Shown here piece after piece: positions 22,975-31,262 of a stretch of 31,557 nt of DNA (the stretch's first letter is position 1; each line of letters opens with the position of its first letter). The position numbers were made by a program, and so were the translations under genes. The stretch lies in the IMG/VR virus record IMGVR_UViG_3300007516_000082, positions 1 to 31,557 of that record, one strand, 5' to 3'. The DNA is from a virus. Under the pieces are notes generated by a model. That model was not told the origin of the DNA, made no database searches, and saw nothing but the letters and a program-made list of their open reading frames with translations.

Positions 22975-23510
22975 GCGCTGGCCTCATCCGTCCGGCGGAA
23001 GGCTGTTTTGACCAGATTGCGCATCCTGTCGATTTCAGCAGGTGAGCGTTTTTGCTCTTGCGGTTTTCCACCTGGCCCGCGTTCCAGCCTCAACACTGCG
23101 CGGCGGCGCTCCTCAAGCATCGGCGCTGCAAACCCCAATAGTTCGCCCGTGCGCGGAAAGAATTTGCTTTCAGGATTGCGCCGATACTGACCAATGGCCG
23201 CATCCAGAATATCAGGCGGAAGGTCGGATAGGTCTTCGATGTAATCGGCGTAAAGTTCCTTGGCCTGTGCAGGGCTGAAATCGGGTCGCCAGTAGTGGGC
23301 TTGCAGTTTAAGCATGGCAGTTGCCACGTATTCCGGTCCCGCTCGCCACAGGGCTTCCTTGAGGCCCGCAAGCACCAACGGGCGGTCAGATACAGGCGGG
23401 AATTGCGGGATGCCCGAAAGGCTACCCACGCGCTTCTGCCACAGCCGCAGCGATTCCGGCGAAGTGATTTTCACGGGCGCGTGCGTCGGTCGATTTGTGA
23501 TTTCCTGCAT
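22971..23510 (-). CDS. helicase loader-like replication protein
   Basis: The centre of this 179-residue protein (LYADYIEDLSDLPPDILDAAIGQYRRNPESKFFPRTGELL) follows the pattern of phage helicase loaders of the G39P type and related host-recruiting proteins. The C-terminus is basic (RLERGPGGKPQEQKRSPAE). Such proteins bring the host DnaB helicase to the origin. It starts within the 3' end of the Rep/HNH gene, with an 89-base overlap in another frame, and AAGGG lies seven bases before ATG 23510. The absence of a phage helicase in this window fits host DnaB use. Confidence 0.55.
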   Translation of the reverse strand: MQEITNRPTHAPVKITSPESLRLWQKRVGSLSGIPQFPPVSDRPLVLAGLKEALWRAGPEYVATAMLKLQAHYWRPDFSPAQAKELYADYIEDLSDLPPDILDAAIGQYRRNPESKFFPRTGELLGFAAPMLEERRRAVLRLERGPGGKPQEQKRSPAEIDRMRNLVKTAFRRTDEASA

Positions 23511-24471
23511 TGGCTCGCCCTTCCGGCATTGGTTTGGTTCGGTTGGCCTTGGCGTCTGCTACTGGCCCGTCAAAGTAATTCCATCCCTTGATCGCCATAG
23601 GAGAGGCACGAGCGGCAACGCGGCGAACGGCGGGGAGAATATCTAGATCGAGGTCGCATCCATCAGCGAGCCACGCAAACGGGCGGCTGAGGTCTTGCAA
23701 TCCGTATCGGGTCGGGTCGATGGACGCCCCAGCCGCTTCGATTAGGCAATCAGCCAAATCGTCCTTGCGCGTAGCATCAGTATCAATTCCATCATCCATC
23801 CTACATCCTACATCCTCCATCTGGAGTGCGACTATTGTAGTCGCACCGATGGATGATGATTTCGCATGGTCTATTTGAGACTTTCGCAATGCGAAAAACT
23901 CATCGTGAGTCATGTCGCATTTCGCTCTATTGCAGTTTTTGCAGGACGCGACTAGGTTTTCTTGGTCATCGGTTCCGCCGCGCGAAATGGGGATTTTGTG
24001 GTCAACATCTAGCGTGTTGAATTTTTTGGAATAATGAGTGATGGCTGTGCCGCAATAAAAACAGTTATTGTTCTGAGCCTCACATAGTGATTTCCTAAAT
24101 TCCGCTCTAGCATCAGGCTCTCCGTAATCTATCGCCACATAATCACGATGCTCGTCAGGTAGCGGATGTATAGCGTTAGGCTTTTGTGGTCGCTGGAACT
24201 TGCGAAAGTTGCGTACTAGCCCGTATGATTTTTCATCAACCTCAATGCGACGGATCAATTCATGTTGCTGCATTTCGTCCAAAAGTGGATCAACAGAACC
24301 ATCGTTGGCTGGACGCAGCCTCGCTTTGAGTGTGAGTGGTTTCCACTCAAACACCCCTTGATCGTCGGCCTCTGTCCATAGTCCTATCAGTAGCATTCGA
24401 GCGGCATCTGAAAGCTGCATGAATGCCTCGTCGGTGAATAGAGTTGGGTGTACTGATCTAATGCGGCTCAT
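23422..24471 (-). CDS. replication initiation protein with internal HNH endonuclease domain
   Basis: Residues 1-108 of this 349-residue protein (SRIRSVHPTLFTDEAFMQLS, LIGLWTEADDQGVFEWKPLTLKARL, FRKFQRPQKPN) are the winged-helix N-terminus of phage replication proteins. Residues about 120-195 form an HNH nuclease: C137xxC140, the catalytic DVDH (155-158), N172 and C177xxC180. Residues 236-310 (FAWLADGCDLDLDILPAVRR, IKGWNYFDGPVADA) look like the replication protein C-terminus again. The HNH unit thus appears inserted in frame. The gene follows the DnaA-like gene and overlaps the loader-like gene. Confidence 0.75.
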   Translation of the reverse strand: MSRIRSVHPTLFTDEAFMQLSDAARMLLIGLWTEADDQGVFEWKPLTLKARLRPANDGSVDPLLDEMQQHELIRRIEVDEKSYGLVRNFRKFQRPQKPNAIHPLPDEHRDYVAIDYGEPDARAEFRKSLCEAQNNNCFYCGTAITHYSKKFNTLDVDHKIPISRGGTDDQENLVASCKNCNRAKCDMTHDEFFALRKSQIDHAKSSSIGATTIVALQMEDVGCRMDDGIDTDATRKDDLADCLIEAAGASIDPTRYGLQDLSRPFAWLADGCDLDLDILPAVRRVAARASPMAIKGWNYFDGPVADAKANRTKPMPEGRANAGNHKSTDARARENHFAGIAAAVAEARG

Positions 24472-27064: not shown

Positions 27065-27162
27065 CTACGCCCCCACCGCAGCCATGCAGCCGCGCAAAGC
27101 ACCGTCACCTCAACAATGGAAAATCCGATAATGGCAAGCAGCGTTATGGGGTCGATGCTCAT
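27061..27162 (-). CDS. 33-residue single-pass membrane peptide
   Basis: The frame encodes 33 residues with one membrane segment (ITLLAIIGFSIVEVTVLCAAAWL) and a basic end (RWGRR). Both ends overlap neighbouring genes by ATGA (27159-27162 and 27061-27064), which makes chance unlikely. A small early membrane peptide could affect host envelope functions or superinfection, but nothing in the sequence shows this. Confidence 0.65.
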   Translation of the reverse strand: MSIDPITLLAIIGFSIVEVTVLCAAAWLRWGRR

Positions 27163-27668
27163 GCTGCTTGCTCCATGCGTAATCCCACGAGTTCATCAAG
27201 CCGCGCTTCAATCCTGTCCATCTGATCTGACGAATAAATACGCCTGCAATCCATCCATTTATGGAAATCAAAAACTCTAACTCCCGCAGCCTCAGCGAAG
27301 TGGGGAAACCAATCCAAACGCTTATGAGAACATGCTTCGCGTATCTTTTTTTGGAGGCTAATTCTAAAATGCTGCTCAATGTATTTGTCGCGACCGAAGT
27401 CTGGCGACACAATTTGGATGTAGTCCAATATTGTGTAATGAGGTTTAAACCATTCAGCGCGGAGATGATGTGCGTCGAATAGATGATGAAGTCTCTTCTC
27501 TTCTACTGGAAGCGCGATGTAAGCCCCTATCCAATGGAGTTCATGTGGTGAAGATTGCTGAAGAGACTTGACGCGGGAATAAACAATGCCCTCTGTAAAG
27601 CCGATTTTAACAGGTCCGTTTTTCTCAACTTGAAGGAAATAAACCTGCCCCAAACGTTTCTTGTTCAT
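27159..27668 (-). CDS. GIY-YIG nuclease family protein (T5orf172-like)
   Basis: The N-terminus of this 169-residue protein carries a GIY-YIG variant: VYFLQVEKNGPVKIGFTE (9-26) with the following RVKSLQQSSPHELHWIG, then EEKRLHHLFDAHHLRAEWF. This is the T5orf172/Mug113 branch. Residues 118-160 (FPHFAEAAGVRVFDFHKWMDCRRIYSSDQMDRIE) resemble a DNA-binding module. Such proteins may nick DNA; whether this one attacks host DNA or is a homing type is not clear. It is the second gene of the leftward operon. Confidence 0.75.
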   Translation of the reverse strand: MNKKRLGQVYFLQVEKNGPVKIGFTEGIVYSRVKSLQQSSPHELHWIGAYIALPVEEKRLHHLFDAHHLRAEWFKPHYTILDYIQIVSPDFGRDKYIEQHFRISLQKKIREACSHKRLDWFPHFAEAAGVRVFDFHKWMDCRRIYSSDQMDRIEARLDELVGLRMEQAA

Positions 27669-27868
27669 GCGACCTCGCTTTGTGCGGGGCCATAAATGTC
27701 TGGGCGAAGTTCGTGGCGGCTGATGCCTGTCACACGCTCCACGTCCAAGACACGCTCAGCAGGAACACGAGACCATTGGCTAACCGCTCCATGGGTAATC
27801 CCAAGTTCGGTCGCCAGCTTAAATTTCAGACCACGTTCGCGGCCAAGACGCTCTTGAATGTCAATCAT
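27665..27868 (-). CDS. Cro/YdaS-like HTH regulator
   Basis: The protein is 67 residues from ATG 27868 (IDIQERLGRERGLKFKLATELGITHGAVSQWSRVPAERVLDVERVTGISRHELRPDIYG). The helix-turn-helix is LATELGITHGAVSQWSR. It matches the YdaS/Cro group, which in lambdoid phages opposes the repressor. The promoter at 27874-27902 should start transcription at this ATG, so the mRNA would be leaderless. An in-frame ATG at 27892 lies upstream of the predicted start of transcription and is less likely. Confidence 0.85.
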   Translation of the reverse strand: MIDIQERLGRERGLKFKLATELGITHGAVSQWSRVPAERVLDVERVTGISRHELRPDIYGPAQSEVA

Positions 27869-27873
27869 GCCTC

Positions 27874-27891
27874 TTGATAGCACCACTAACA
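27874..27891 (-). promoter_or_regulatory. operator A, left array
   Basis: TTGATAGCACCACTAACA is repeated exactly, in inverse orientation, at 28404-28421. The dyad TAG-N5-CTA lies in it. It covers the -10 of the leftward promoter. Confidence 0.8.
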
Positions 27892-27902
27892 TTATGGTTC
27901 AA
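27874..27902 (-). promoter_or_regulatory. leftward early promoter (PL-like)
   Basis: On the minus strand, TTGAAC (27897-27902) is followed by 17 bases and TATCAA (27874-27879). Operator A fills the spacer and -10. The expected start falls at or next to ATG 27868. It drives the Cro-like and replication genes. Confidence 0.7.
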
Positions 27903-27909
27903 GCACTTT

Positions 27910-27937
27910 TTGTTAGCACCACTGTATGGCGTAGATT
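27910..27937 (+). promoter_or_regulatory. repressor promoter (PRM-like) with operator B
   Basis: TTGTTA (27910-27915), a 16-base spacer and TAGATT (27932-27937) precede ATG 27947 by nine bases. Operator B (TGTTAGCACCACTGT, 27911-27925) overlaps the -35 and spacer, so the repressor can control itself. Confidence 0.55.
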
Positions 27938-27946
27938 TGCAAAGCA

Positions 27947-28294
27947 ATGAGAATCCGTCGTATGCGTTTGTCTCTTCAAAAAAAGCAGAAACCTCGTCAT
28001 TTTATACGTGAATGGCGCAAATATCGCGGACTCACGTTAGAACGTCTGGCCGAGCGCATCGACGTGACCCATGGGGCCATATCTCAGTTGGAGCGCGGAT
28101 TGATCAATTATACTCAGCCAATGCTAGAGGCGCTTGCGGTCGCTTTGTCCTGCGAACCTGCGGATTTATTGCAACAGCCTCCATCTTCTACGCATAATGA
28201 ATTGGCTGATTACGTCATGCGCCTGGACGCCCATAAACGGGAGCAGGCGTTGCGCCTTTTACGCATTGCGCTTGACGACGAAAAACAGGCCTAA
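27947..28294 (+). CDS. short XRE-family phage repressor (CI-like)
   Basis: Residues 18-66 of this 115-residue protein hold an XRE helix-turn-helix (FIREWRKYRGLTLERLAERIDVTHGAISQLERG). The C-terminal half is helical (ELADYVMRLDAHKREQALRLLRIAL) and could mediate dimerisation. There is no LexA-type Ser-Lys peptidase domain, so cleavage by the SOS response is not expected. The gene lies between the two mirror operator arrays. ATG 27947 fits a near-leaderless transcript; ATG 27962 is an alternative. Confidence 0.85.
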   Translation: MRIRRMRLSLQKKQKPRHFIREWRKYRGLTLERLAERIDVTHGAISQLERGLINYTQPMLEALAVALSCEPADLLQQPPSSTHNELADYVMRLDAHKREQALRLLRIALDDEKQA

Positions 28295-28370
28295 TCGCAT
28301 ACCAATATGCTCTGATCGAATGTTTTTGACGCTCGTTTTCTAAGCAATACCAACCCCTTATAAAATAATT

Positions 28371-28385
28371 ACAGTGATGCTAACA
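28371..28385 (+). promoter_or_regulatory. operator D, right array
   Basis: ACAGTGATGCTAACA matches the reverse complement of operator B at 14 of 15 bases. It lies just upstream of the -35 of the rightward promoter, as B does for the leftward one. Confidence 0.65.
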
Positions 28386-28392
28386 TTTATTG

Positions 28393-28421
28393 TTGTCATC
28401 CATTGTTAGTGGTGCTATCAA
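28393..28421 (+). promoter_or_regulatory. rightward early promoter (PR-like) with operator C
   Basis: TTGTCA (28393-28398), 17 bases, then TATCAA (28416-28421). Operator C (28404-28421) is the exact inverse copy of operator A and covers the spacer and -10. It drives the recombination operon. Confidence 0.75.
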
Positions 28422-28464
28422 TATCCTCACACCAGAGCGGCCACCCGCAGTGAGGATGAGACGA

Positions 28465-28812
28465 ATGACAATCAGTCCTAATGGCTACACAGATGATTTT
28501 GGCCCAAAACCTTTGAGGATGAAGACCATGCAAGGCGAAGCAGTCCTATTAAACGGCGAAACCACGCGGCCATTGCGCACCGAAGCGCAGGCGCGAGCCA
28601 AACGTAAATTCTATGCAGGCGAACGCTTTGAACAAGCTGAGCGCCGTTGGTTCCGTGATGATCGATTTCATTTTGATCTGGCAATCAGTTCAGCCGTTGC
28701 CGCGATGGAAAACGCGAATATGACGCCAGAGCAAATCCAGATATTCCGCGACCATGTTTCGGATTCGATCGGCGACACATGGGCTGTCGATTATCGCGCG
28801 GAGGATGAGTGA
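28465..28812 (+). CDS. hypothetical protein, first rightward early gene
   Basis: The frame is 115 residues from ATG 28465, with GAGG nine bases upstream; ATG 28456 is an alternative, and the codons before that overlap the promoter. The centre is basic (RPLRTEAQARAKRKFYAGERFEQAERRWFRDDRF) and the C-terminus is acidic. No family is recognised. As the first gene behind the rightward promoter it may have a regulatory or host take-over role. Confidence 0.6.
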   Translation: MTISPNGYTDDFGPKPLRMKTMQGEAVLLNGETTRPLRTEAQARAKRKFYAGERFEQAERRWFRDDRFHFDLAISSAVAAMENANMTPEQIQIFRDHVSDSIGDTWAVDYRAEDE

Positions 28813-29155: not shown

Positions 29156-29394
29156 TGAAATATCCAATGCCAACCGTCAACTATGAGCTTGACCGCCCAC
29201 TTATCGAGGCCCGCATTAAAGCCAGACACGCACTGCGCGACCTTATTGCATGGCTCAAGCCATTGCCGCGCAGACTGGATGACCTATCGCATGAGCAGCA
29301 AATGGTATTCCACGCGCTCCAGCAAGGCATTGAAGGCGGTGCAACGGTGACAATTCCAAGCGCGGTGTTTGTCCAGGATCGGCGGGCGCTATGA
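29155..29394 (+). CDS. hypothetical early protein
   Basis: This 79-residue protein is helical (RPLIEARIKARHALRDLIAWLKPLPRRLDDLSHEQQMVFHALQQ). The start ATG 29155 overlaps the upstream stop (TGATG), and its own stop overlaps the next start (ATGA). No family is recognised; a partner of the following DUF1367-like protein is possible from tight coupling. Confidence 0.6.
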   Translation: MKYPMPTVNYELDRPLIEARIKARHALRDLIAWLKPLPRRLDDLSHEQQMVFHALQQGIEGGATVTIPSAVFVQDRRAL

Positions 29395-29825
29395 GCAAGC
29401 GCCCCAAACGCGACAAGCTGCCCCACGCAATCGTTCGGCGCGGACCCCGTGGCCTTAGCCCTGTGTCGGCATATGACGCCGAAGCATTGATGGCCTTCCC
29501 GAATAGTGCCGAGTTTGAACTTGTGCCGATTGTAAGCCGCTCGCTCAAACAACTCGGAACCTACTGGATGATGCTCCACCGCGTTGTTAATGCGACCGAC
29601 GCTTGGCCCTCTGCGGTGCATTTGTCCGACGAAATCAAGATCACGCTGGGCTATCGACGCCAGCTTGCCGATCTACGGACGGGCGAAGTCCACACCAGCG
29701 TTGATAGCATTGCGCTTGATGCAATGACGCAAGTCGAGTTTAGCGCGTTTTTCGATCAGGCACAAAAACTGCTCATAGAGAAATTGGGTTTTGACCCGTT
29801 AGCATTTTTGGAGGAAGTAGCATAA
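29391..29825 (+). CDS. DUF1367/NinB-like phage protein
   Basis: The pattern of this 144-residue protein (SRSLKQLGTYWMMLHRVVNAT, ITLGYRRQLADLRTGEVHTSVDSIALDAMTQVEFSAFFDQAQKLL, then GFDPLAFLEEV) resembles phage DUF1367 proteins and the recombination helper NinB. These help recombination or DNA processing. It directly precedes an exonuclease and an annealing protein, which fits. The similarity is by pattern only. Confidence 0.65.
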   Translation: MSKRPKRDKLPHAIVRRGPRGLSPVSAYDAEALMAFPNSAEFELVPIVSRSLKQLGTYWMMLHRVVNATDAWPSAVHLSDEIKITLGYRRQLADLRTGEVHTSVDSIALDAMTQVEFSAFFDQAQKLLIEKLGFDPLAFLEEVA

Positions 29826-30637
29826 ACGCACCCTACACAAAGCCCGCATCGTGGCACGCCGAGCGCCTTACTGGTATCGGTGGATCAGATGCCAATACCA
29901 TTCTTAGCGGCGACCCAGAGCGCGTTATGCGGCTCTACGGCGAGAAGATCGGTGCGACAGAACCGGAAAACCTTGAGTGGGTACTGCCTGTCCAAATGGG
30001 CAGCGCAACGGAAGAATTGAATTGCGCGTTTTTTTCCCACGCCACAGGCCGCGAAGTTTGGGACCGCAATCAATCAATCCACGCTGCCGACCGTATTTAT
30101 ATGCGCTGCGAATTGGATGGGCAGACGCTCGCAGAAAACGGCGAACCGGCAATCCTTGAGTGCAAGCACGTCAACGCCTTCTCCACGGTAGAAGATGTGG
30201 TCCAGCGGTATATGCCGCAGCTACATCACAACATGCACTGTGCGGGTGTTGGCCATGCCGTGTTGAGCATTTTCATCGGCACGTTCAAACACGAAATCTT
30301 TGAAGTGGCGATGGATGACTTCTACCTGATTAGCCTTCTGGACGCAGAGGAAGCCTTCTGGAACGCAGTCACAACTAGAACGCCGCCCATCGTATCGGCC
30401 CCTATTGCATCGCCTGTTCCGTTTGAAAAGCTGCGTGATGCTGACATGACGGGCTCAAACGAGTGGGCCAGCAATGCGCTTGATTGGCTCGCGAACAAAG
30501 ACGCCGCAAAGGATTTTGACAAAGCCGCCAAGACGATCAAGGGGCTTGTTGATGCGGATGTTGGCAAAGCCACGGGACACGGGATCGAAGTTAAGCGGAG
30601 CAAGTCGGGCTCCCTCACAATTAAAACGGAGAAGTGA
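29822..30637 (+). CDS. YqaJ-like recombination exonuclease, apparent AUA start
   Basis: From ATA 29822 the protein is 271 residues. The N-terminus has the family motif RLTGIGGSDANTIL, and GSATEELNCAFF follows. The nuclease core is ELDG with LECKHV (Glu and Lys of the active site). The C-terminal part (WASNALDWLANKDAA, KTIKGLVDADVGKATGHGI) is also typical. It degrades one DNA strand to feed the annealing protein downstream. The only ATG, at 29927, would delete the conserved N-terminus. GGAGG lies seven bases before ATA. Confidence 0.85.
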   Translation: MNAPYTKPASWHAERLTGIGGSDANTILSGDPERVMRLYGEKIGATEPENLEWVLPVQMGSATEELNCAFFSHATGREVWDRNQSIHAADRIYMRCELDGQTLAENGEPAILECKHVNAFSTVEDVVQRYMPQLHHNMHCAGVGHAVLSIFIGTFKHEIFEVAMDDFYLISLLDAEEAFWNAVTTRTPPIVSAPIASPVPFEKLRDADMTGSNEWASNALDWLANKDAAKDFDKAAKTIKGLVDADVGKATGHGIEVKRSKSGSLTIKTEK

Positions 30638-30638
30638 C

Positions 30639-31262
30639 ATGCAAACGAGCGAACAGACGGACAAGATTATTCCGGCCTTCATTAAGGCCGAGCATGCGGC
30701 GGGGTCGGCAAAAAAGACCGCAACAAACCCTCATTTCAAATCGAAATACGCCGATCTTGAGGCCGTTGTTGATGCTTGCATAGACGCATTGAAGGCGAAC
30801 GATCTGGCAATCTGGCAGTCGGTTTCCGAAGACGGCCAGCGCATGATTACGCGGGTTTACCATTCATCCGGTCAATGGATGGAGGGATACACGCCTCTAA
30901 TCATCGCCAAGAATGACATGCAGGGCCTTGGCAGCGCGTCAACTTACGCTCGCCGCTATGGGCTCATGGCCGCGCTTGGCATCGCACCAGAAGATGATGA
31001 TGGAAACGCCGCGAGCAAATCCGCACCGCAAGCACAAACAAAGCAGGCCGCGCCGAAAGCCGCCGAAGAACCTGCTCACGTAAAAGACGCCAAGGACATT
31101 CTCGCCAAGGCTCACGCCATTACGGATCCCGACGAACTAGCGGCGTTCCTTGATGGATGCACCCCGCGCCTCGACAAGATCAAAGATGCCAGCGAGGCCA
31201 CATATAACCACGTCAACAAACAACTGGACGCGATAGACGCGGCGTTAAGGATTGCAGCATGA
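30639..31262 (+). CDS. erf: Erf-family single-strand annealing protein
   Basis: This 207-residue protein has the Erf core: IIPAFIKAEHAAGSAKKTATNPHFKSKYADLEAVVDA, YHSSGQWMEGYTPLI, GLGSASTYARRYGLMAALGI and EDDDGNAAS. A Lys/Ala linker and a C-terminal helical part follow. It anneals complementary strands during phage recombination. ATG 30639 has GGAG seven bases upstream. It lies between the exonuclease and SSB genes, the usual recombination set. Confidence 0.92.
   Translation: MQTSEQTDKIIPAFIKAEHAAGSAKKTATNPHFKSKYADLEAVVDACIDALKANDLAIWQSVSEDGQRMITRVYHSSGQWMEGYTPLIIAKNDMQGLGSASTYARRYGLMAALGIAPEDDDGNAASKSAPQAQTKQAAPKAAEEPAHVKDAKDILAKAHAITDPDELAAFLDGCTPRLDKIKDASEATYNHVNKQLDAIDAALRIAA

Follow-up and report, generated by a model that had tools for sequence, protein, structure and literature searches.

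A putative lambda/P22-type immunity region with mirrored two-site operators, and matched recognition helices of repressor and Cro-like protein in related loci

In phage lambda, the operators OL and OR are located on either side of the repressor gene, each array contains three sites, and the promoters associated with them point outward. In phiKO2 and N15, OR also has three sites and OL has two (PMC4997575); consequently, with a two-site OL in phiKO2, the operator count is not decisive for the wider lambda/P22 group. The Cro protein of phiKO2 binds OR3 only (PMC4997575). For CP-933P, the YdaS protein has been argued to be a Cro analogue, and the −35 and −10 elements of the PL promoter are identical to those of PR (PMC8630535).

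Here, we describe a locus in the window, that is, the whole 31.5-kb stretch of DNA analysed, which is an incomplete viral record. The region is very probably an immunity region of the lambda/P22 type, where a repressor and a Cro-like protein would compete at four operators, and the window locus itself is a standard switch type. As in lambda and P22, the repressor gene and cro diverge around OR, OL lies beyond the repressor gene, the outward promoters are under operators, and the recombination genes (erf) are on the PL side and the replication genes on the PR side. The window differs from lambda in having two operators per side, 35–36 bp apart, rather than three closely spaced ones, in its short repressor, in which no S24 peptidase domain is present, and in the lack of rex-like genes between the repressor gene and OL. 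The original prediction had called the layout unlike that of lambda, which stands for the two-site count. It does not stand for the mirror-image arrangement, because outward operators flanking the repressor gene are the standard OL/OR plan, and this feature does not separate the window from lambda.

The immB regions of the telomere phages N15, phiKO2 and PY54 resemble the window in their repressor/cro region with OR and, for N15 and phiKO2, in the two-site OL, whereas their OL precedes repA. CP-933P shares with the window a small CI analogue, a Cro analogue of the YdaS family and overlapping sites between divergent genes. However, CP-933P has more repeats per side, and the right array of the window directly follows the repressor gene, with no toxin–antitoxin genes there. 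Also unlike in CP-933P, where YdaT, a CII analogue, comes after YdaS, no YdaT match was found among the tested genes after cro, which matched MUG113 or nothing. The repressor mRNA has been shown to be leaderless in CP-933P, whereas in the window it is the cro mRNA for which this is predicted. The features of the locus are listed in Table 1.

Table 1. Putative operators, promoters and genes of the immunity region in the window.
Feature	Position	Strand	Basis and remarks
Left operator 1 (strong)	27875-27891	.	TGATAGCACCACTAACA; over spacer and −10; exact inverted copy 28404-28420; PWM rank 1
Left operator 2 (weaker)	27911-27927	.	TGTTAGCACCACTGTAT; outer half-site deviant; upstream of −35, adjoins repressor gene
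Right operator 2 (weaker)	28369-28385	.	TTACAGTGATGCTAACA; inverted-repeat match and PWM
Right operator 1 (strong)	28404-28420	.	TGTTAGTGGTGCTATCA; over spacer and −10; inverted repeat and PWM
PR-like outward promoter (putative)	27874..27902	-	TTGAAC 27902-27897, 17 bp, TATCAA 27879-27874; toward cro
PL-like outward promoter (putative)	28393..28421	+	TTGTCA 28393-28398, 17 bp, TATCAA 28416-28421; by sequence
Cro-like gene, 67 aa, YdaS/P22_Cro family	27665..27868	-	Pfam and PDB matches
HTH_3 repressor, 115 aa	27947..28294	+	Pfam HTH_3 8e-11; PHROG repressor families; relatives
First right-operon gene, 115 aa, no known family	28465..28812	+	Pfam, PHROG
NinB/Orf-like protein, weak match	29391..29825	+	phrog_319, 1e-3
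YqaJ / RecE-like exonuclease	29927..30637	+	Pfam 1.4e-8; phrog_434 2.7e-26
Erf-type single-strand annealing protein	30474..31262	+	Pfam ERF 1.1e-20; listed ORF

The two inverted pairs of the original prediction are both found in the window: a perfect 18-nt repeat (27874-27891 versus 28404-28421), and a second pair (27911-27926 and 28370-28385) that matches at 94% over 16 nt. They belong to four 17-bp near-palindromic putative operators with the core TAG-N5-CTA, which form two mirror-image pairs around the repressor gene; in the weaker pair one half-site is CAG/CTG. By chance, about 0.007 exact 18-mer inverted repeats are expected in the entire window, and with up to three mismatches allowed the two strong sites alone were matched (shuffle mean 0.05). 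A PWM made from the relatives alone, with the window left out, placed the four operators at ranks 1–4 of the entire window (22.6, 22.6, 16.7 and 16.3), while the next-best score near them was 2.8 and no third operator was found on either side. Taken singly, the scores of the two weaker operators are within the range of the shuffle maxima (mean 12.4, max 17.9), and it is their position that makes these two sites credible. The centres of operators 1 and 2 are separated by 36 bp on the left and 35 bp on the right, and the operator-1 centres of the two arrays by 529 bp.

From the sequence and the conserved arrangement in relatives we infer two outward promoters. Their −10 hexamers and 17-bp spacers are identical, their −35 hexamers differ, and operator 2 lies upstream of the −35 with a gap of 8 bp in the left array and 7 bp in the right one, so that the sequence bears out the outward promoters with a common TATCAA, a 17-base spacer and operator 2 upstream of the −35 that had been proposed. 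The position of the PR-like promoter is kept in relatives, and a generic sigma-70 scan listed neither of the two. In the window, the cro start codon is located 5 nt beyond the −10 (27866-27902, minus strand). A TTGAC hexamer occurs in 37 relatives, and in 33 of them a start codon follows 34–37 nt beyond it if the start nearest to 35 is chosen, and when all the distances were counted without such a choice, the largest group was again at 32–39 nt. Since the start codon is placed where transcription should begin, in the window as well as in relatives, we predict a leaderless cro mRNA, and the same pattern suggests leaderless cro mRNAs throughout the family. The leaderless cI and cro mRNAs of PY54 are a precedent (PMC4488713). 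On the other side, the leader of the right operon (28426-28456) contains a stem, CCTCAC/GTGAGG, just past the predicted transcript start. Similar stems of other sequence occur in the relatives L005, L014, L085 and L069, and the fold energy of the right-leader RNA hairpin is not unusual across loci (mean z −0.9).

The repressor gene is the sole gene between the two arrays, and the alignment with L005 favours a start codon at 27962, which gives 110 aa, over the listed one. Its recognition helix is THGAISQ. Pfam detected the HTH only, with no peptidase, S24 or cleavage domain; about 40 residues follow the HTH domain, with no known oligomerisation domain, and the comparison with solved structures returned generic transcriptional regulators only. 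The Cro-like gene, divergent from the repressor gene across the left array, encodes the recognition helix THGAVSQ and matches Pfam YdaS_toxin (2.9e-14, 53.1 bits with a cut-off of 30), Pfam P22_Cro (1.2e-9, 38.2 bits with a cut-off of 30.2) and the Cro protein 3bd1 in PDB (2e-8). Its 67-aa product is the Cro-like protein that the original prediction mentioned. The label “YdaS toxin” is not to be read as a statement of function, given the case made for the CP-933P protein (PMC8630535).

On the right side, the true start of erf is probably further in than that of the listed ORF. To the left of cro, a RusA-like resolvase gene and genes for replication initiation proteins are followed by terminase, portal and head genes, and the gene order, once reversed, reads recombination, OL, repressor, OR, cro, replication. 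In one of the replication initiation proteins (23422-24471, minus strand), residues about 120–205 also match HNH endonuclease families, as if a nuclease domain had been inserted. The gene following cro (27159-27668, minus strand) encodes a MUG113-type domain protein, and its 3′ end (27170-27187) repeats 17 of 18 nt of the cro helix codons (27786-27803) in another frame.

Neither a tyrosine or serine integrase nor a ParA match was found in the window, an incomplete record, or in that of L005 (42 kb), and the reading as a phage-plasmid was rejected for the lack of a ParA match. Searches with blastn against named phages returned no DNA match. The relatives carry integrases or are located in contigs of bacterial chromosomes. 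The window phage is probably temperate and would form lysogens.

The relatives were gathered by scanning first with the repressor and next with the alignment A1, which resulted in 92 loci with 74 distinct repressors including that of the window. The search patterns of the A1 stage exclude the recognition helix and therefore did not select for it, while one earlier repressor pattern includes it. A weak match in a Clostridia MAG (L092) was left out. The named hosts are mostly Alphaproteobacteria, including Ancylobacter, Roseibium, Mesorhizobium, Rhizobium, Sinorhizobium (MAG), Inquilinus and Bosea (MAG). In L005, all four operators are kept in a region that is just 72% identical, and the deviant outer half-site ACAG of operator 2 is kept in the left arrays of most relatives. 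When each left region was compared with the reverse-complemented right region of the same locus, 12 of the 68 loci exceeded all cross-locus pairs, and this inverted similarity is in the top 5% in 21 of the 68, where about 3 are expected. Direct-orientation similarity is likewise raised (8 loci beat all pairs and 15 are in the top 5%), and thus the inverted order is enriched, not exclusive. In several loci (L056, L067, L076 and L080), two operators enclose a GTCAA, which is the −35 in backward reading, on either side of the gene, and these operators are unrelated in sequence to those of the window. Together with the excess of inverted similarity, these loci indicate that mirrored arrays recur in the family. 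In many relatives, no mirrored pair was found within 700 nt past the repressor gene; their right arrays may be cut off, more distant or absent.

Do the two regulators of a locus share their specificity? The recognition helices of the repressor and the Cro-like protein match within the locus when compared with shuffled pairings (z=13.6, n=70), also after dereplication (z=8.0 for 30 loci and 5.4 for 14 loci), while the flanking segments of the two proteins give within-locus z values of −1.2 to 0.7. Because the Cro helices had been positioned by eye, the test was repeated with every ORF candidate and register, for true and shuffled pairings alike, with z=10.9 and 5.7 for the helices and at most 0.5 for the flanks. 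The serine codons in the helices of the repressor and the Cro-like gene are of different kinds (TCT versus AGC in the window, TCC versus AGC in L005), which favours matching at the protein level over recent copying. In the window, the repressor and the Cro-like protein seem to recognise common sites on the DNA. However, the repressor and Cro of phiKO2 occupy different operator sets (PMC4997575), and thus a shared helix need not give shared occupancy.

The helix is also linked to the operator. A TAG-N5-CTA site is located left of the repressor gene in 11 of the 13 loci with a T-x-G-[ASQ] helix versus 1 of the 58 others (p=3.5e-10); for the right side, the counts are 8 of 13 versus 2 of 58. The class was drawn from loci with operators already seen (the window, L005, L006, L015, L038 and L085) and the p-values overstate independence because the loci are related. 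Among the class members whose operators had not been seen beforehand (L012, L014, L016, L017, L022, L083 and L049), 6 of 7 have the site. L049 (match 736-1002) breaks the helix rule, with THGALSK in the repressor, DRTTISR in Cro, and the operators ATGTGCC...GGGCACA. With the rest of the domain controlled, operator similarity is correlated with helix similarity (partial Mantel, r=0.35, p=0.0005), and the trend vanishes among the most distant pairs. The class of the recognition helix thus predicts the operator sequence, as far as these candidate sites can tell. Two further proposals are in line with the relatives: the repressor gene between two outward arrays with two sites per side recurs in them as the same architecture, and a single binding specificity for both arrays agrees with operators that track the recognition helix.

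Alternatively, the perfect inverted repeats, which lie about 500 bp from each other, might be recombination sites on the flanks of an invertible segment, or a chance pair, and not operators at all. We consider this highly improbable, since the chance expectation is as low as given above, no family of the resolvase/invertase type was found in the record, and the sites lie on promoters, are kept in L005 amid divergence and track the recognition helix. If the sites are operators, as we prefer, the two arrays might have arisen by inverted duplication of a single ancestral module. The operator 1 match is exact (18/18), and in the window and L005 both arrays have the deviant ACAG half-site in operator 2. 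However, the two arrays resemble each other neither in their spacers nor in their −35 elements, and therefore selection for one specificity explains the array match equally well; moreover, a full TAG half-site is present in the right operator 2 of L038 and L085. Such an origin seems unlikely to us.

The preferred reading of an immunity region with four operators may be extended by looping, where repressor dimers on both arrays form a higher oligomer and repression becomes stronger. Two mirrored pairs around the repressor gene are comparable to OL and OR of lambda, and PaaR2, a short CI analogue, is octameric in solution (PMC8630535). However, the roughly 40 residues past the HTH contain neither a known oligomerisation domain nor a lambda-type C-terminal domain, and simple double repression also accounts for the layout, so that looping is rather doubtful.

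For the immunity region itself, we infer repressor binding, the order of affinities and autoregulation as follows. The short HTH repressor, probably a dimer, would bind the near-palindromic 17-bp operators and, at operator 1 on both sides, would cover the spacer and the −10 and thereby turn off the outward early promoters. Of these, the PR-like promoter would drive cro and the replication genes, and the PL-like promoter the recombination genes. The Cro-like protein, with its nearly identical helix, would compete for the four operators and lead to lytic commitment. The weaker left operator 2, beside the repressor gene, probably tunes the repressor's own promoter, like OR3 of lambda.

As cited in PMC4488713, Hall, Lefevre and Cordes (2005) described a correlation of the helix with the operator half-site in lambdoid phages, and to that extent they may already state part of the helix–operator point. 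Compared with the rules attributed to them there, the present set is mainly alphaproteobacterial, and the repressor helix and the within-locus pairing of repressor and Cro are considered. A limited search of the open-access literature returned no description of a family-wide pairing of repressor and Cro helices. The rhizobial phage 16-3 may be a precedent for the operators; the AP-16-3 paper contains no operator details.

In general, we tentatively propose, as a view still somewhat short of probable, that in a broad family of temperate phages, mainly of Alphaproteobacteria, the specificity of immunity resides in one short helix matched across two separately encoded proteins, the repressor and the Cro-like one, with mirrored two-site operators of each phage type that change along with it, and that two-site arrays and a repressor without the C-terminal domain constitute a minimal alternative to the cooperative three-site switch of lambda, possibly with looping. 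A rule leading from the repressor helix to the operator is suggested for dozens of uncharacterised phages, and immunity groups could be predictable from sequence. The loci also offer natural pairs for studying the joint change of specificity in two proteins and several DNA sites, and the small repressors with their simple two-site operators could serve as gene-control parts in Alphaproteobacteria.
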